The position numbers were made by a program, and so were the translations under genes. 64,000 bases of DNA from Lacticigenium naphthae DSM 19658 (GTDB lineage: Bacteria; Bacillota; Bacilli; Lactobacillales; Carnobacteriaceae_A), in the NCBI RefSeq assembly GCF_000425865.1, contig NZ_AUEG01000002.1:62001-126000 (forward strand). The letters run 5' to 3'. Positions 4,198 through 26,774 of the stretch are shown here, one piece after another; positions within the stretch are counted from its first letter, which is position 1; the number at the start of each line of letters is the position of its first letter. The notes below the pieces were generated by a model. The model worked only from the letters and a program-made list of their open reading frames with translations. It had not been told where the DNA came from and did no database searches.

Positions 4198-4440
4198 AAA
4201 TTCAATATAATTAGACGAAGAACAAACGCAGTAAGTTTATTGGTCCCTATTGCAGAGAGTCGGTGGATGGTGCAAATCGACAGATACTAATAAGCTGAAA
4301 TACATTTGGGAGTCTCTGTAAACAGCGTTGCCTACGTTACAGGTAAGAGTGGAATGCGCTGCATTCAAACTGGGTGGTACCACGGAAAATTTTCGTCCCA
4401 ATGAAAAGATAAAATCTTTTCATTGGGACTTTTTATTTGC
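4198..4440 (+). promoter_or_regulatory. T-box riboswitch (tyrosine) in the tyrS leader
   Basis: The leader shows T-box landmarks. The base of stem I pairs GCAGAGA near 4252 with TCTCTGT near 4313-4319, and an internal GGTGGATGGTGCAAATCGACAG-like loop follows the 5' arm. A likely specifier TAC, the tyrosine codon, sits at 4301-4303 on the 3' side of stem I. The conserved GGTGGTACCACGG T-box lies at 4373-4385, followed by an intrinsic terminator. Uncharged tRNA-Tyr would bind and favour the antiterminator, raising tyrS expression under tyrosine starvation. The 5' limit is set from the promoter; secondary structure was judged by eye. Confidence 0.9.
4395..4435 (+). terminator. Terminator stem of the tyrS T-box
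   Basis: A perfect 16-bp hairpin (4395-4410 with 4414-4429) is followed by a T-tract. The 5' arm is just after the T-box core, so the antiterminator would compete with it. Confidence 0.9.
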
Positions 4441-18768: not shown

Positions 18769-19194
18769 AGTGATGTCCTTTCTTTGACGAATTAAGTATC
18801 GACTCTCATTTCACGGAGAATTACAAACAAAACCCGATTTCAACTCCTTTTAAATGGCAATTTAACTTAAAAAAATCAGTCAAGATTTAAATTCACCACT
18901 TTCTAACATGCATGACCTCATCATATCTATTATTTCGCTAAAAATCAATTCTAGTACTCTATCTAAGGAAAAGCAGTCTTTTTCAATATAGTTTCCTTTT
19001 TAAAAATATAATATAGAATTATATAAACACTCAGAAGAATATTTTCACTTATCAGTTGTTTTCTAATAAAATTAAACTGAATCACTATCAAAATAATCTA
19101 TCTTCATGAGATCTTTTTATCTTGTGTTACCTAAAACCTAACTCTATACTGTATGACTAGCTTTTTTAGCAATATAATTATTGGTTTAGTTAGT
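18769..19194. other. AT-rich intergenic region, no gene seen
   Basis: About 425 bp, very AT-rich, with stops in all six frames and no coding frame with a start and ribosome binding site. It holds the promoter region of the cis-prenyltransferase gene on its left side. No other structure was recognised. Confidence 0.5.
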
Positions 19195-19238
19195 AAAAAC
19201 TGGGAGTAAAAGCTAAATCAGCTTTTACCCCCAGTTTT
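19195..19238 (-). terminator. Terminator of the sigma54 sugar-acid operon
   Basis: A 19-bp hairpin (19196-19214 with 19220-19238, one mismatch) lies 14 bp past the dehydratase stop. On the minus strand it ends in a T-rich tail. Confidence 0.85.
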
Positions 19239-19251
19239 AACAGATTTTTAA

Positions 19252-20397
19252 TTACCACTCAGCAATAGTGCCGTCATAATTTTTCCATTTTGGATTGGTC
19301 CACACTAACCCCTCTTGAGAAATTTCATCTATGAGTTCTTCATTAAGTTCCAGTCCTAGACCCGGCTTAGTTGGAAGATCTACAAAACCATCTTTATACT
19401 GGAAAACTTCTTTATTATGAACAAAGTCTAATAAATCAAAACCTTTATTGTAGTGAATGCCTAAACTCTGCTCTTGTATGAACACATTCGGAGTACAAGC
19501 ATCAACTTGTAACGTTGCAGCTAAAGCAATTGGTCCATAAGGAGCATGTGGTGCAACAGCTACATCGTAAGCTTCAGCCATCGCTGCTATTTTCTTGGTC
19601 TCTAAAATACCACCAACTAAAGCAACGTCTGGTTGAATGATGTCGATACTGCCTTGATTGAAGATGTTTTTAAAAGCCCATCTACTATACAAGCGTTCTC
19701 CAGTTGCTAGTGGTGTAGCTACATGGTGTGCTATTTCAGAGAATGCCTCCTCATTTTCTGGAAGTACAACTTCTTCTAAAAACATAGGTTTCAAAGGTTC
19801 AAGCTCTCTAGCCAATACTTTTGCCATCCCTTTGTGTACTCTACCATGGAAATCTACGGCAACTTCCATTTCATATCCTAATTTTTCCCGTATAGAAGCA
19901 AATCTGTCGACTACTTTTTGTACTTCTTTAAATGAGTCGATATAATGCAATTCTTGAGTGGCGTTCATTTTAACAGCTCTGAACCCTCTATCATATCTAT
20001 CCATAGCTTCAGTCGCTACATCTTCAGGCCTATCGCCTCCAATCCATGAATAAACTTTTATGTTATCACGTGCAGCTCCACCCAATAATTCGTAGACAGG
20101 AACATTAAAATATTTCCCTTTAATATCCCATAAAGCCATCTCTATTCCGGATACAATTGTTCCATTAATTGGTCCACCTCTAAAGAATGAGCGGTGAAGT
20201 TCTTGCCATAATCTTTCAATCTCAAAAGGATTTCGACCAATAATTCTATTGCCCATTTCGTAAGCACCAGAGACGACCATCTCTGTTTTCGTACCTGATA
20301 TCATTTCTCCCCAGCCATCAATGCCTTCGTCTGTACTAATTTTTATAAAAATCCACCGCGGTTTGACCTTGTAAACTTTAATATCTGTAATTTCCAT
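19252..20397 (-). CDS. dgoD: Enolase-superfamily sugar-acid dehydratase (D-galactonate dehydratase-like)
   Basis: 381 residues, the length of DgoD. It has the capping domain, then the barrel with Mg ligands D182 (VDFHGR), E208 (FLEEV) and E234 (TGERL). H184 and H284 (APHAPYGPI) are the acid/base histidines characteristic of galactonate dehydratase. The family dehydrates D-galactonate to 2-keto-3-deoxygalactonate. It is the last gene of a PTS operon that also encodes a KDPG-type aldolase but no kinase, so its natural substrate may be a phosphorylated sugar acid delivered by the PTS. This is an inference; the phosphate pocket cannot be judged by eye. It starts 21 bp after EIIC with a GGGGGA site. 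Confidence 0.85.
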   Translation of the reverse strand: MEITDIKVYKVKPRWIFIKISTDEGIDGWGEMISGTKTEMVVSGAYEMGNRIIGRNPFEIERLWQELHRSFFRGGPINGTIVSGIEMALWDIKGKYFNVPVYELLGGAARDNIKVYSWIGGDRPEDVATEAMDRYDRGFRAVKMNATQELHYIDSFKEVQKVVDRFASIREKLGYEMEVAVDFHGRVHKGMAKVLARELEPLKPMFLEEVVLPENEEAFSEIAHHVATPLATGERLYSRWAFKNIFNQGSIDIIQPDVALVGGILETKKIAAMAEAYDVAVAPHAPYGPIALAATLQVDACTPNVFIQEQSLGIHYNKGFDLLDFVHNKEVFQYKDGFVDLPTKPGLGLELNEELIDEISQEGLVWTNPKWKNYDGTIAEW

Positions 20398-20418
20398 TAT
20401 ATATCCCCCATCAAGTAG

Positions 20419-21813
20419 TTATGTTGACTGCTCTCCCATTTCTAATTCTCTTTGTTCTCTAACTTGCTTCGATTTAGGTTTCATAACTTCAAAGTAATAC
20501 CAGAAAATCCCAATGATAACTATCATCGTAGGAAGCGTAACTAGTAACGGACCAACAAAAGCAAAAAATACTAAGAAACTATGTGTTAAGCTTGTTGCTG
20601 AAAATGATGAAATCAATAGAGCGCCACCAGCAACAGCTACTTCAATACCTACAGAACCTGCAAGGTCAGTAAGGATAGGGGCTGTAATCGTACCTGCATA
20701 TAAAATTGCAGCACTTGTTGCTAATCCCAAAATAATATTCTTGAAAAAATTCCCCCGTGTGAGCGCAACGATTAAAGCAATTCTAAAAGGAATAATCGCT
20801 AAATCAGCGAAAGGTAACATTCTATTTCCAGGCAAAATAAATGCGAGTCCAATGGTCAAAGGAATTAAAATTAATGCAGTTGTAATTACATCTTGGTTTC
20901 CAACTACAACTGCTGCATCTAGACCAATAAACAATTTTCTGTCTTTGAATTTCTTTTGAGACCAGTTTTGTGCTGCTTCAGAGATGGGCATTAATCCTTC
21001 TACAAATAAAGAGGTCATTTTAGGAATAATGACTAATACCGCAGCCATACTTACACCTAATTGTAGTGAAGTAGTGACATCGTATCCACCTAATAATCCA
21101 ATAGCTGATCCTAAAATTAAACCTAGAACCATTTGATCTCCGAAAAACCCGAGATATTTTTGAACATCTTTAAGAGTAATATTAATTTTCTTTATTCCTG
21201 GAATTCTATCTAATAGCCAGTTTAAAGGCCAAGCAAGCACCAACGTGGAGGTTGCTGACACTGTTGGTAGAGAAACTCCCGGAATACCAAAGAATTTTTC
21301 AATCATTGGCTGCGACCAATCAGCTATTTTAAAAGTTGTAATCGCCATAACAACTGAAGCTCCAATCCCAAGCCATATATTTTTTGTAACATAGTGAACC
21401 ATTATTCCAACAATAGCCATATGATGATAATTCCAGATGTCTACATCTAAAGTATTTGTTGTCCTAGTTAACAGCATGAGAATGTTTACTGCAAATATTG
21501 AAATAACAATAAACACAATGATAGGAGAAGACCAGGTGACAGCTGCTATAGAGCCCCAGCCTACATCTAGAACATCTAAATTAATACCAATATTATCCAC
21601 CATTGCTTGAGAAGCAGGGCCGAGATTTGAAGCCATGTAATCTAGTAATAATCTAATCCCGGCAAACCCAATCCCTAATGTTAAACCAGATTTAAATGCT
21701 TTGCCTAATTTCAAGCCAAAAAACAAGCCAATAACAGTTATAACAATGGGCAACATTACTGTTGGACCAGCGCCAATGATCCAATCGAAACCTGACATTA
21801 TTGCATCCCACAT
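20419..21813 (-). CDS. PTS EIIC, galactitol (GatC) family
   Basis: 464 residues with about ten to twelve hydrophobic segments. The opening (GFDWIIGAGPTVMLPIVITV) and the DIWNYHHMAIVG and PMIEKFFGIPGVSLPT regions are typical of GatC/SgcC permeases, which carry the substrate across the membrane during phosphorylation. It sits between EIIB (23 bp) and the dehydratase (21 bp) with an AGGAGG site. The substrate is probably an acidic hexose derivative, judged from the dehydratase and aldolase in the same operon. Confidence 0.88.
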   Translation of the reverse strand: MWDAIMSGFDWIIGAGPTVMLPIVITVIGLFFGLKLGKAFKSGLTLGIGFAGIRLLLDYMASNLGPASQAMVDNIGINLDVLDVGWGSIAAVTWSSPIIVFIVISIFAVNILMLLTRTTNTLDVDIWNYHHMAIVGIMVHYVTKNIWLGIGASVVMAITTFKIADWSQPMIEKFFGIPGVSLPTVSATSTLVLAWPLNWLLDRIPGIKKINITLKDVQKYLGFFGDQMVLGLILGSAIGLLGGYDVTTSLQLGVSMAAVLVIIPKMTSLFVEGLMPISEAAQNWSQKKFKDRKLFIGLDAAVVVGNQDVITTALILIPLTIGLAFILPGNRMLPFADLAIIPFRIALIVALTRGNFFKNIILGLATSAAILYAGTITAPILTDLAGSVGIEVAVAGGALLISSFSATSLTHSFLVFFAFVGPLLVTLPTMIVIIGIFWYYFEVMKPKSKQVREQRELEMGEQST

Positions 21814-21836
21814 AATTTTTCCTCCTCAGTCTTTTT

Positions 21837-22112
21837 TTATTTTAAATAGCTCAAAATCTCTTTTAAGGTCTCTTCTTTACCAACACCAGTTAATAATGAT
21901 AATCCACCTACCACGGGAGTTTTAACTTGTCCGCCAAATTGTCCAGTTGTTACAACTAAATCATAATCGTCTCCTTTTCCAGGAACCTCCATTAATTTAC
22001 ATTGTTCGGTCTTAATATTTATTCTTTCATTTTCTGCATATTCTTTTATTTTTGAAGCTACTACTGTTGATGTTGCAATTCCATTTCCACAAGCTACTAA
22101 AACTCTTTTCAT
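21837..22112 (-). CDS. PTS EIIB, galactitol (GatB) family
   Basis: 91 residues with the active cysteine C8 in VACGNGIATSTVV, the P-loop-like phospho-cysteine motif of the lactose/galactitol EIIB fold. It passes phosphate from EIIA to the incoming substrate. Length is normal. It lies 17 bp after EIIA and 23 bp before EIIC. Confidence 0.92.
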   Translation of the reverse strand: MKRVLVACGNGIATSTVVASKIKEYAENERINIKTEQCKLMEVPGKGDDYDLVVTTGQFGGQVKTPVVGGLSLLTGVGKEETLKEILSYLK

Positions 22113-22129
22113 TTTAAATTCCTCCTATT

Positions 22130-22600
22130 TTATTCTTGCTTTTGATATAAATATGGCTCTAACATTTCTAAAACTCCACTTTTATTCGAAGTGTTTACAA
22201 TTCTATTTGTTAATTCTTCATTTTGAATGATAGTTACTACCTTTTGCAACATTTCTATTTGTCCATGTGGTTCTTTAATAGCTAGCATTATAACCATTTG
22301 GACACCTAACTCAGTTTCTGTATTTTCCATTGAGTTAAAGAGAACTGGCTTCTTTAATATTCCAATCGCTATCGAGGTCTCATTCACTAAATTGTTATCT
22401 GCATGAGGTATGGCTATGTTCACTCCTGGTGAAGGTAACCCAGTGGGGTAAACTTTTTCTCTTTCTAAAATAGCTTGTTGATATTCAGCTTTTACTAAAT
22501 CTCGTTTACATAACTCTTCTGAAAGAAATAAGAGTACCTCTTCTTTTGTATTTAAGTCTAAGTCTATAAAAACCAAGCTTTTGCTAAGATCAAGATCCAT
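22130..22600 (-). CDS. PTS EIIA, fructose/mannitol/galactitol type
   Basis: The longest frame starts 45 bp earlier inside the aldolase gene. The ATG at 22600 follows AAAGGAAAG and gives 156 residues, the normal EIIA size. The phospho-accepting histidine is H66 in AIPHADNN, preceded by YPTGLPSPGVNI. It takes phosphate from HPr and hands it to EIIB. It is the second gene after the sigma54 promoter, 16 bp past the aldolase stop. Confidence 0.92.
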   Translation of the reverse strand: MDLDLSKSLVFIDLDLNTKEEVLLFLSEELCKRDLVKAEYQQAILEREKVYPTGLPSPGVNIAIPHADNNLVNETSIAIGILKKPVLFNSMENTETELGVQMVIMLAIKEPHGQIEMLQKVVTIIQNEELTNRIVNTSNKSGVLEMLEPYLYQKQE

Positions 22601-22616
22601 AATGACTTTCCTTTCT

Positions 22617-23252
22617 TTATTTATTGATGTTATTCTTTTCTTCAAAAGAGTTCAAAGATTTCTTCAAGTTCTTTATATCTTGGTTTATTATATCCTCTTT
22701 ATTAAATATTCCGGAACCAATCCCGACAAAGCTTGCACCGTTTTCAAAAAAAGCATAAGTGTTCTCGGCAGTTATTCCTCCAACAGCCATCAGAGGAAGT
22801 TTCCCTAATGGCGATTGGACATCACTAAAGAATTTGTACCCTACTGTTCTTGCTGGAAAAACTTTTATAATATCTGCTCCATTTGTTTTTAACTCAACTA
22901 TTTCAGAAGGTGTCATAGCTGCTGGCACAACAATTATATTGTTATTATTACAATATTTTATAACCTCTTTTTCCAGTTTAATAGGAGATAAAATAAATTT
23001 AGCGCCTGACTGAATCGCTCTTTTTGTATCTTCAAGATTTAATACTGTCCCAGCACCAATATGAAATTTACCGCCATACTTATTAGATATTTTCTTAATC
23101 GTTTTAAATACATCTGGTGAATTTAAAGTAATTTCAAGTGCATACTTCTCTTGTTTGTTTTCTTCTTCTAATAATTGTATTACAGTATTTACCTGTTCAA
23201 AATTATAGCCTCTTAAGATAATCGTAACTTTTGGAAAATTACTCTCTGTCAT
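22617..23252 (-). CDS. KDPG/KDPGal-type 2-keto-3-deoxy-phosphosugar-acid aldolase
   Basis: 211 residues. The class I aldolase Schiff-base lysine is K130 in ADIIKVFPA, and the catalytic glutamate is E40 in ALEITL. GAGTVL and MAVGGITAEN form the phosphate-binding loops. It cleaves 2-keto-3-deoxy-6-phospho-gluconate or -galactonate to pyruvate and glyceraldehyde-3-phosphate. It is the first structural gene behind the -24/-12 promoter, with a GGGGAGG site. A phospho-specific aldolase beside a dehydratase, with no kinase, implies phosphorylation earlier, at PTS uptake. Confidence 0.9.
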   Translation of the reverse strand: MTESNFPKVTIILRGYNFEQVNTVIQLLEEENKQEKYALEITLNSPDVFKTIKKISNKYGGKFHIGAGTVLNLEDTKRAIQSGAKFILSPIKLEKEVIKYCNNNNIIVVPAAMTPSEIVELKTNGADIIKVFPARTVGYKFFSDVQSPLGKLPLMAVGGITAENTYAFFENGASFVGIGSGIFNKEDIINQDIKNLKKSLNSFEEKNNINK

Positions 23253-23282
23253 TTTTCAACCTCCCCTCTCACTTTATATTAA

Positions 23283-23298
23283 GCAAATACCATGCCAA
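23283..23298 (-). promoter_or_regulatory. Sigma54 (-24/-12) promoter of the PTS/aldolase/dehydratase operon
   Basis: On the minus strand the sequence TTGGCATGGTATTTGC has GG (23296-23295) and GC (23284-23283) separated by exactly 10 bases, matching YTGGCACG-N4-TTGC with one change. It lies between the stop of the activator gene and the aldolase gene, 30 bp upstream of the aldolase start codon. Its partner activator is the adjacent gene with a GAFTGA loop. Confidence 0.85.
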
Positions 23299-23306
23299 CT
23301 TTTGGC

Positions 23307-26180
23307 TCAAATTGTATTTTTTGTCAAAATGGAGTATATCTCTTGGGGAGAAGTTGCAGATTGAAGGTTATCTATAGTGTCTTTGCTATAGATAACCTTG
23401 TATAAGTGTTCAATTTCTTCAGTATTTTTTTCGGTAAGTGCAAGCATAAAAATTATGTCAACATATTGATTGTTTTCCCATATAATTGGTTTGGCCAATT
23501 TTGTAACCACTATGGCTGGATTTGTTACAAATTCACCTTCCCCATGTGGAATCGCAATTCCTCCTTCTAAATAAGTGTTTCCCATTGTTTCTCTTTTATA
23601 AACACTCAAAGAATAATCGAGATTTACATCCTCCTGTATTTCTAATTGAGTCACCATTTTGTCAATAACATCATTTTTCATAATAAATTTCTCTTCTACA
23701 TATATAGAATCTAAATCAATCAAATCTTTTAATGGGTTTTTAGGTATGATCAATTTATCCTTTTGTATTATGTTAATCAGCTTATCGCTATCGTTAAATA
23801 GTGTTTCTGCTGACATAAACGGAACATTTTCATAGTTTAAATTGACTGTTCCAATGATGGCTATAATTTCTTTTGATTGCGATATCTCATCTAATTTACT
23901 AAAGGTATCTTTACTTGAAAAATAACCGACAGGAAGAATTTCAATATTATCAGGAATGCGTTCAATGGACGTTTCAATATAGTTTTTTAGTACTTGTGCA
24001 GCTCCCTCACCTGTTAAACAAAGGGTAATGATGGCTTTTTCTTTTTTTATAGAATCAACAAACGTACTTCCTGTCAAAAATTGTTTTGTATCAATATCTT
24101 TTGCAATATCTTCTAGCGTATCTTCGGGTAATAATGAACGTCTGACTGATTCAATTACCATTAGGGTATCCACTCGCCCTATAACACGGACATCAATACC
24201 TGTACGTGCAGTTATAATATCTCCAAAAAGAATTAAAGAACCCATATCCGCTAATATTATAACCCCTTTTCCTTGATTAGCTTTTTCTATGATAGGCAGT
24301 GTTTTTTCTAACATTAAATTAGGTGAGTCTGTTAATCCCATTTCCAAACCGATAGCATGAGTTACACCTAGCAACTTATTTGCTACTTCTGCCATCCCTT
24401 TAGCAACATGGCCATGAGATAAAACAACGACTCCAATTTTTTGAGTATTCTTTTGAACACTTCCTTTAAAGTTTTTCAGGTACATTGCTATAAATCCTAC
24501 TTCATCTTCAGATAAATCCACGTTGAATTGTTGGTCTATATATATTTTGATACGGGTGGCTACTTGAAACTCTTCAACATACTTATGTTTTATATTGACT
24601 AAATTAGGATTTTTTGTTCCTTTATTTAATAAGAATCGATTTATAGCCGAATTTAAATGAATTGATAATGGGAAAAAAAGATTAGGATCCAAGTTAGAAA
24701 TATATTTTTTAGCAATTTCAAAGCTTCCTTTTGCTGCATCTATTGCCTTTTTCCCGATGACATTTTGTAAAATTTCATGATTCATCTCTTTGTTATTAAT
24801 TACTTTTGATAACCGTTTCATCTCGTTATCTAGTTGTTGGCTTAAGACTTTATTTATTTGATTTATAGTATAATCTTCTGATCTCATTGTGTTATAGGTG
24901 TTTTCAATGTAATCATAAATAGTCGTCGTTTCTAGATTACTTGGAGAATGAACTAATTGTTTGTTATCACTTTCATCAATAAGTAAATCATCTAAACTAT
25001 ACGAGTATACTTCTGTATCAAAGTAACTCTTATTGATAATTTCGTCCATAATAAATCGCGGTAGGTCTTGGAAAGTTACTAATACATTTTTTTGAAGATT
25101 TAAAGTGGACTGTAGAAACCCTTTAGCAGAAGTGGCTTGAATATCACTTTTTAATTGCCCTATATTACCTTGACAAGAATAAGATAAAAATGACTTTATT
25201 ACATCTCGTTTAATTTTAAATGGTTTTCCCACGCGTTTACTTTCATCTTTAAAAAATAATTCAATAAACTCAAATCGTTCTTTAATGGTTCGCTCGTGGT
25301 ACCCTGGCAAATTAATTGCTATTGGGATTCTTCGTCTAAAAGTCAATAACAATGCCTCTGAAGGATCTTCTGTTGTAGCTCCGATTAGTAGTAAATCACT
25401 TGAGTGGGTAAGTTCTGTTTCTCCCATCCTTCTGTAAAGTTTTTGATCTAACAAATAAAATAAAATCTCCTGTCCTTCTGGTGGTAATCGGTGAATTTCA
25501 TCTAAGAACAGAATTCCTTTGTCACAAATTTCTACCAATCCTTTTTTATCTTCACCTGCACCGGTAAATGCACCTTTAGTATGACCAAATAGTTGAGAGA
25601 GTAATAGCTGTGGATTATCGGCATAATCAGCGCAATTTAAAATTTCAAAAGGAGAATTTTCATTAAAATTAGAAGTTGTTTTAGCGTACTCATACATATT
25701 TTTTGCTAAAAAACTTTTCCCAGAGCCTGACGGACCTGTTATAAGAGTGTGTAATCCTCTGGGAGGGTAGAGTACAGAAGCCTTTGCTTGATTTATTTGT
25801 GTTTTTAAACTTTCGTCAACTCCTATTATTGTATTGAAAGGGTTATATTTTTTATCCGCAACCTCATTTTCACTACTAAAGTTGCTGTCCATAATTTCTT
25901 TTTTCAACTTATTAACAGAGGACCGAGCAATTTTAAATCCACGCTCATTTAATAATTCAGTCAACTTTCGTTCAGATAATTTTGAGTTGTCTGTTAAAAT
26001 ATCAATAATCTCTTTTTCAATGATTTCTGCCCTTCTATCGCGAGAATCTGAAATAGAATGTTCTATTCTTAGCTTAGTTACTGTCTCTCTTGAAGTGTTT
26101 AGATAATGTGCTAGCTGACTATCTGTGTATGGATTTTTAGGGTCTTCTTCTTTGATTAATTTTTTTAATTTAGTCAACAT
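23307..26180 (-). CDS. LevR-type sigma54-dependent activator with PRD and PTS domains
   Basis: 957 residues from the ATG at 26180; a TTG 9 bases earlier would sit on the ribosome binding site. Domains in order: two short helix-turn-helix-like segments (about 18-41 and 68-96); an AAA+ domain with Walker A GPSGSGKS (149-156), the sigma54-contacting loop GAFTGA and Walker B ILFLDEIHR; a PRD region; an EIIA-Man-like domain (VVLSHGHVAKGM, then ILADMGSL); a GatB-like segment (LCLTGEGAA); and a C-terminal EIIA-Mtl/Fru-like domain with AIPHGEG. Phosphorylation by HPr and by the operon EIIB would tune activity. Both N-terminal segments resemble the RpoN box of sigma54 itself, which is unusual for a LevR. 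Confidence 0.92.
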   Translation of the reverse strand: MLTKLKKLIKEEDPKNPYTDSQLAHYLNTSRETVTKLRIEHSISDSRDRRAEIIEKEIIDILTDNSKLSERKLTELLNERGFKIARSSVNKLKKEIMDSNFSSENEVADKKYNPFNTIIGVDESLKTQINQAKASVLYPPRGLHTLITGPSGSGKSFLAKNMYEYAKTTSNFNENSPFEILNCADYADNPQLLLSQLFGHTKGAFTGAGEDKKGLVEICDKGILFLDEIHRLPPEGQEILFYLLDQKLYRRMGETELTHSSDLLLIGATTEDPSEALLLTFRRRIPIAINLPGYHERTIKERFEFIELFFKDESKRVGKPFKIKRDVIKSFLSYSCQGNIGQLKSDIQATSAKGFLQSTLNLQKNVLVTFQDLPRFIMDEIINKSYFDTEVYSYSLDDLLIDESDNKQLVHSPSNLETTTIYDYIENTYNTMRSEDYTINQINKVLSQQLDNEMKRLSKVINNKEMNHEILQNVIGKKAIDAAKGSFEIAKKYISNLDPNLFFPLSIHLNSAINRFLLNKGTKNPNLVNIKHKYVEEFQVATRIKIYIDQQFNVDLSEDEVGFIAMYLKNFKGSVQKNTQKIGVVVLSHGHVAKGMAEVANKLLGVTHAIGLEMGLTDSPNLMLEKTLPIIEKANQGKGVIILADMGSLILFGDIITARTGIDVRVIGRVDTLMVIESVRRSLLPEDTLEDIAKDIDTKQFLTGSTFVDSIKKEKAIITLCLTGEGAAQVLKNYIETSIERIPDNIEILPVGYFSSKDTFSKLDEISQSKEIIAIIGTVNLNYENVPFMSAETLFNDSDKLINIIQKDKLIIPKNPLKDLIDLDSIYVEEKFIMKNDVIDKMVTQLEIQEDVNLDYSLSVYKRETMGNTYLEGGIAIPHGEGEFVTNPAIVVTKLAKPIIWENNQYVDIIFMLALTEKNTEEIEHLYKVIYSKDTIDNLQSATSPQEIYSILTKNTI

Positions 26181-26774
26181 AAAAAACAACTCCTTTAATT
26201 TTTGTTCCTTATAGTCTATTTTTTGATTTTAATTATTCTACTGCTTCAACCTTTCTATTTGTCAATCCACATTCTCACCATAATATATATATAAATATCC
26301 ATACCTTGCCTTCAATTTATTACTCAATTCTATTACATTTAATTAACACTTAAAACCTACACTAATAACGCGACTAAGGCAATACTCTTTATAGATTCAA
26401 CTTAAAAAGAGTATCGTGAACAAGGTATGCTTGAAACAATACACACTTAAAAATTAAGTTTTATCAATTTTCACATCTTCTATCACATAATACACTAATT
26501 TAATTATTCGTACTTTTCTACACTGTTTAAAGTACTTTTATAATTTTCCATATAAAATAATCATTCTATCCAATTATTTTATATGGAAATTTTACTGACT
26601 ATAAATATATTTCTATTAAACCTTTCTCCATGTCCACTTTCTATCATTATTTGATTCAATTGCGGCTTTTCTAATCTTTTCATAGACCTTTTTTATATTT
26701 CTAACTATACATGTTCAAGTATTTTGACAATACTATTCGTAATTATTAAATCTCTTTAATCCATAATACTCAAC
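26181..26774. other. AT-rich region upstream of the LevR-type activator
   Basis: About 590 bp with stops in all frames and no convincing gene. On the minus strand TTGACA (26265-26260) and TAGAAT (26240-26235) are 19 bases apart, a possible but loosely spaced promoter for the activator gene. Several AT-rich inverted repeats are present but none has enough GC to call. Confidence 0.4.

Follow-up and report, generated by a model that had tools for sequence, protein, structure and literature searches.

A candidate kinase-free, PTS-driven route for a D-galacto sugar acid, with its own clade of DgoD-family dehydratases, in Lacticigenium naphthae and other Firmicutes

The nearest precedent for a sugar acid that is phosphorylated at uptake by a phosphotransferase system (PTS) is the D-glucosaminate system of Salmonella, which is served by a LevR-type activator and a σ54 promoter. 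In this route, an eliminating enzyme acts on the 6-phosphate and an aldolase follows; the genes, DgaABCDEF, were reportedly set out by Miller et al. in 2013. The system and its regulator DgaR are described in PMC4987338. A similar logic is proposed here for an operon of Lacticigenium naphthae DSM 19658, located in a 64,000-nucleotide stretch of contig NZ_AUEG01000002.1 (the window, meaning this whole stretch), where a LevR-type activator and a -24/-12 promoter precede genes for an aldolase, a GAT-type PTS and an enolase-superfamily dehydratase. The Salmonella system differs from the window operon in its mannose-family PTS, its pyridoxal phosphate-type ammonia-lyase and its product, which is 2-keto-3-deoxy-6-phosphogluconate (KDPG) and not 2-keto-3-deoxy-6-phosphogalactonate (KDPGal).

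Another related system is dgoRKADT of Escherichia coli, whose dehydratase and aldolase are homologous to those of the window and which shares with it the proposed intermediate KDPGal, but which relies on uptake by a proton symporter, a free-acid dehydratase, a DgoK kinase step and a GntR-type regulator. E. coli DgoD is 50% identical to the window dehydratase and has E-G-R-A where the latter has G-T-K-T. The galactitol PTS GatABC resembles the window in its GAT-family EIIC, EIIB and EIIA, but the window proteins score under all three galactitol cut-offs and their operon has no polyol-phosphate dehydrogenase. In the Entner-Doudoroff pathway (Edd/Eda), a 6-phospho-aldonate is likewise dehydrated and then cleaved to pyruvate and glyceraldehyde-3-phosphate; Edd, however, is an IlvD/EDD-family enzyme acting on 6-phosphogluconate, whereas the window dehydratase belongs to the enolase superfamily and would act in the galacto configuration.

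With a probability of roughly 0.7, the window operon encodes a kinase-free, PTS-driven catabolic route for a D-galacto sugar acid, most likely D-galactonate. In this system, EIIC, EIIB and EIIA would import the acid and, following PTS chemistry, phosphorylate its terminal hydroxyl to give D-galactonate-6-phosphate, which a specialised clade of DgoD-family dehydratases, with the phosphate held by an S-G-T-K/R-T loop, would convert to KDPGal. The KDPGal-type aldolase would then cleave this product to pyruvate and glyceraldehyde-3-phosphate, and the LevR-type activator, by analogy to DgaR and LevR, may sense PTS flux and switch on the -24/-12 promoter. The kinase-free logic had been put forward in an original prediction made from the window alone, and it gains support from a dehydratase clade strictly tied to a GAT-type PTS, a clade-specific loop and the lack of DgoK; the enzyme activity we infer from sequence. 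The same prediction had listed the components, from activator to closing terminator on one strand with GG-N10-GC spacing in the promoter, and profile matches, coordinates and the fold of the terminator bear it out. All parts lie on the minus strand, running from 26180 to 19252, and their tight intergenic spacing fits a single operon:

23307..26180, minus strand: LevR-type σ54 activator (AAA domain with GAFTGA, PRD, EIIA-Man-like and EIIA_2 domains; Pfam PF00158, PF00874, PF03610, PF00359)
23282..23297, minus strand: -24/-12 (σ54) promoter TGGCATGGTATTTGCT, GG-N10-GC, about 30 nt 5' of the aldolase ATG
22617..23252, minus strand: KDPGal-type aldolase of the KDPG/KHG family (PF01081, residue comparison)
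22130..22600, minus strand: PTS EIIA of the EIIA_2 family, phospho-His motif IPHAD (PF00359)
21837..22112, minus strand: PTS EIIB, phospho-Cys motif ACGNG (PF02302)
20419..21813, minus strand: PTS EIIC, GAT family (PF03611, TIGR00827)
19252..20397, minus strand: enolase-superfamily dehydratase of the PTS clade, proposed D-galactonate-6-phosphate dehydratase (NF010624, clade, loop motif)
20284..20298, minus strand: codons of dehydratase S34-G35-T36-K37-T38, the loop before the first helix (alignment and DSSP of the model)
19185..19250, minus strand: intrinsic terminator 3' of the dehydratase (fold -29.9 kcal/mol, z -7.76), with a T run after it

The window dehydratase passes the DgoD equivalog model NF010624 (PRK14017) with 598.8 bits against a cut-off of 311, and the solved structure nearest to its predicted model (predicted local distance difference test, pLDDT, 92.2; secondary structure assigned by DSSP) is that of R. 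pickettii 3rr1/3rra, with 47-48% identity, Z 53.5 and 1.7 Å over 372 residues. Residues D182, H184, E208, E234, H284 and E309, which we take to be the metal ligands and acid/base (proton-moving) residues of the DgoD family, are invariant in 40 aligned dehydratases. In a tree built from 99 dehydratases, the PTS-linked enzymes form one clade of 33 sequences with 100/100 support and a long stem. The positions that separate this clade from classical DgoD in the alignment are few and partly clustered, comprising residues 32-38, where P-x-x-E-G-R-A is replaced by M-x-S-G-T-K-T; residues 70-81, which include a one-residue deletion; and A285 and Y287, which flank P286 next to the catalytic His284 and are C and L in classical DgoD. 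Across the first of these regions, classical enzymes read E-P-x-x-E-G-R-A and the PTS clade E-M-x-S-G-T-K/R-T (E-M-x-S-G-T-K-T in the window). The pattern SGT[KR]T is present in 33/33 members of the PTS clade and 0/66 classical enzymes, all 66 of which (66/66) have EG[RK]; Glu35 (E. coli numbering) is kept in 54/54 classical enzymes, whereas 28/28 PTS-linked enzymes have Gly there.

In the predicted model, loop residues 34-37 are coil; they join strand 28-33 to helix 38-50, the first helix, whose N-terminus they adjoin. Across the enolase superfamily, the loop at this position covers the active site. It is proposed, from general protein chemistry, that an S-G-T-K/R-T turn at the start of a helix, minus the acidic residue, would suit a phosphate. 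Both loop forms occur in one genome (G314): the PTS-linked dehydratase (L125) has SGTRT, and the classical one (L128), which has DgoK, a permease-like gene and an aldolase as neighbours, has EGRS. The loop form goes with the pathway context and not with the organism.

Relatives were collected by scanning one genome per species and comparing flanks of up to 10 kb by their open reading frames, and order- and phylum-level searches added members. Aldolase, EIIA, EIIB, EIIC and dehydratase occur together in 26/26 loci with a dehydratase 73-96% identical to that of the window. An EIIC-GAT gene was found in the flanks of 0/53 loci whose dehydratase is at most 60% identical, several of which have DgoK-like or DgoT-like genes in its place. 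Two members from Clostridia (70-72% identity) lie in LevR-EIIA-EIIB-EIIC operons, and three deeper members (64-66%) in PTS operons of different gene order. The aldolase/EIIA/EIIB/EIIC-GAT cassette surrounds 32/32 PTS-clade dehydratases with enough flanking DNA, L037 being excluded because its contig is too short to judge. The same dehydratase is paired with two forms of EIIC, 58-93% or 33-40% identical to the window EIIC, and is still 73-80% identical where the EIIC is of the 33-40% type; Enterococcus malodoratus has two cassettes, one with each form. Since the EIIC type is exchanged and the dehydratase conserved, the dehydratase goes with uptake by a PTS and is not tied to one particular transporter.

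The configuration of the acid is read from the aldolase. Compared with E. coli DgoA and Eda, the window aldolase keeps Glu45 and the Schiff-base Lys133 (Eda numbering), and it has Val at the V154/T161 site, which sets the stereochoice between KDPG and KDPGal aldolases (PMC4915726). The window enzyme thereby has the stereo-site Val, Lys and Glu of a KDPGal aldolase (DgoA), and Val occupies this site in the aldolase of every PTS cassette. The second aldolase of the genome, in a hexuronate locus, has Ser there, and a Thr-type aldolase accompanies classical DgoD at loci of some Bacillaceae; the residue is therefore not trivially constant. The Val points to KDPGal and hence to an acid with D-galacto C4/C5, and a gluco- or L-configured substrate is disfavoured by it; among the acids first suggested, D-galactonate (or one with the same C4/C5) is kept, while L-gulonate and L-galactonate are set aside. 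Gracilibacillus loci (e.g. L047, L051, L063) have classical DgoD-family genes near Thr-type (KDPG-like) aldolases, and some 'DgoD' annotations may therefore not concern galactonate.

Because the stereochemistry at C2/C3 is lost, the aldolase cannot distinguish D-galactonate from D-talonate, D-gulonate or D-idonate, and the same kinase-free route could serve one of these acids, or D-galactono-lactone, which would be phosphorylated at uptake as the lactone and then opened by a lactonase. A PTE-family gene does lie 3' of the dehydratase in L026, L033 and the E. faecium plasmid locus L159, and its second NCBIfam match is to phospho-furanose lactonase (137.3 bits, under the cut-off of 630), which suggests phosphorylated lactones as an alternative entry. 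A different acid or a lactone is nevertheless unlikely, as the dehydratase is built on the DgoD scaffold and the window operon and most cassettes are without a lactonase gene. Genes downstream of the cassette encode EI-like and HPr-like proteins in Caproicibacter and an HPr-like protein in Coprothermobacter (both read from the sequences); these neighbours and the PTE-family gene would be consistent with phosphorylated intermediates.

A sugar-acid kinase co-regulated with the operon would count against the kinase-free reading, and one was sought. DgoK (PF05035) had 0 matches in the window's genome, in a search whose E. coli positive control worked, and was absent from 25/26 cassette-bearing Lactobacillales genomes; the sole positive one is G314, where DgoK lies beside the classical DgoD. 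The window's genome does encode a PfkB relative of 2-keto-3-deoxygluconate and 2-keto-3-deoxygalactonate kinases (178.5 bits to NF040938, under the cut-off of 400), but this KdgK-like kinase sits in a separate hexuronate-type locus on contig C12, with UxaC-like, UxuA, aldolase and TRAP-like transporter genes, and the -24/-12 pattern has no match on that locus. No relative of it was found at 1e-15 in 11/28 cassette genomes. No cassette kinase was seen among the open reading frames near cassettes, and PfkB genes near L027 and L129 were rejected as candidates because they resemble ribose-operon genes. With DgoK absent from 25 of 26 genomes and no KdgK relative in 11 of 28, a kinase is not a general partner of the cassette.

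Some points speak against the kinase-free route. The loop change arose once, and its link to the PTS is a single event that many lineages have retained, not a set of independent ones; a KdgK-like kinase is present elsewhere in the genome, and PfkB kinases can be promiscuous; and a histidine-phosphatase-family gene downstream in some enterococcal cassettes could in principle act on the phosphorylated intermediate. The kinase and the phosphatase, together with the passing of the NF010624 equivalog, favour a dehydratase that uses free D-galactonate, in which case the PTS would bring in another sugar, or the acid would be released by a phosphatase, and KdgK would phosphorylate the product. Such an arrangement is decidedly improbable, given the cassette genomes that are without these kinases, the change across the whole clade of loop residues invariant in classical DgoD, the lack of another sugar-acid transporter in the cassette, and the ATP that a phosphatase followed by a kinase would waste.

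The window EIIC passes the EIIC-GAT superfamily model PF03611 (283.3 bits, cut-off 24.2) and scores under the galactitol model TIGR00827 (413.5 bits, cut-off 542.2), as do EIIA under NF007236 (61.9 bits, cut-off 139) and EIIB under NF007643 (59.2 bits, cut-off 95), and on these scores a galactitol operon was rejected. A PTS for galactitol or a related polyol with two passenger enzymes, suggested by database labels and by PMC6042284, where the E. faecalis gene set is treated as galactose/galactitol metabolism (its only listing in the literature searched), would match the family resemblance of EIIC, EIIB and EIIA but is highly improbable, as these cut-offs are missed, the window operon has neither a polyol-phosphate dehydrogenase nor a tagatose-bisphosphate aldolase, and dehydratase and aldolase are never absent from the cassette. 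A second EIIC-GAT gene of the genome, on contig C14, is an orphan IIC with no EIIA/EIIB neighbours.

The window activator has the σ54 AAA domain with GAFTGA, the PRD and the PTS EIIA-like domains of the LevR-type class; its start is the ATG at 26180, with an alternative TTG possible at 26189, and it does not reach the DgaR equivalog NF047795 (442.6 bits, cut-off 1400). The genome contains rpoN. The pattern TGGCAYN5TTGCW has 7 matches in the 2.13-Mb genome and 4 for the reversed control, and because it is so rare, a chance match in the 54-bp gap is very unlikely. The site lies 5' of the aldolase in every tested cassette locus that has a LevR-type gene (10/10) and in 0/18 aldolase-first cassette loci without LevR, and this strict co-occurrence, with the genome counts, rules out a chance site. 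A LevR-type gene precedes the cassette in the window, Alkalibacterium, two more Lactobacillales genomes and several Clostridia/Negativicutes. In most Enterococcus and Streptococcus cassettes its place is taken by a PRD/EIIA regulator of ~680 aa with a winged helix at its N-terminus, so that σ54 control does not define the system. The σ54/LevR control originally predicted is therefore real in the window operon and present in some lineages, but it is lineage-specific and not a general feature. A T-box leader at 4209-4403 of the window, on the plus strand, has no relation to the operon.

The cassette is carried by Enterococcus, Streptococcus, Carnobacteriaceae, Lactobacillaceae and anaerobic Firmicutes, among them many gut and food bacteria. 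It, or the dehydratase with cassette neighbours, is also plasmid-borne in E. faecium, E. faecalis and Latilactobacillus curvatus (loci L157, L158, L159, L160; NZ_CP065771, NZ_CP116963, NZ_CP044267, CP016217), and several of these plasmids are typed as conjugative. Related dehydratases occur on E. durans and Lactococcus plasmids as well, and on E. faecium p17-318_1 the cassette is near IS1216 and dfrG. In many enterococci and one streptococcus (L014, L015, L020, L021, L157), two genes lie 3' of the dehydratase, one for a small conserved protein that matches no Pfam family and one of the histidine-phosphatase family. The operons L125-L127 encode two additional proteins 5' of EIIB, one of 344 aa that matches no Pfam family and one that is a xylose-isomerase-like TIM barrel. 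In the basal members L161, L162 and L036, a 2-hydroxyacid dehydrogenase and a UxaA/GarD-type (altronate/galactarate) dehydratase lie between EIIC and the DgoD-like enzyme, which suggests that the route may also take in another phosphorylated acid.

We know of no mandelate-racemase-type dehydratase shown to use a 6-phospho acid, and no description of the pathway was found in the literature searched, where many subscription papers fell outside reach. The PTS clade is probably a new isofunctional family, a mandelate-racemase-type D-galactonate-6-phosphate dehydratase with an evolved phosphate-binding loop, which together with the GAT-type PTS and the KDPGal aldolase would form an undescribed, plasmid-spread and kinase-free 'galacto' counterpart of the Entner-Doudoroff pathway. 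If true, this would correct the widespread labels 'galactonate dehydratase' and 'galactitol PTS' in the lineages that carry the cassette, and would provide an enolase-superfamily case in which one short loop shifts an enzyme from a free to a phosphorylated substrate. It would also give fermenters a further route to gain energy from an aldonic acid, driven by phosphoenolpyruvate with no separate kinase step. Since conjugative plasmids of enterococci carry the cassette, it is a candidate fitness trait in the gut.

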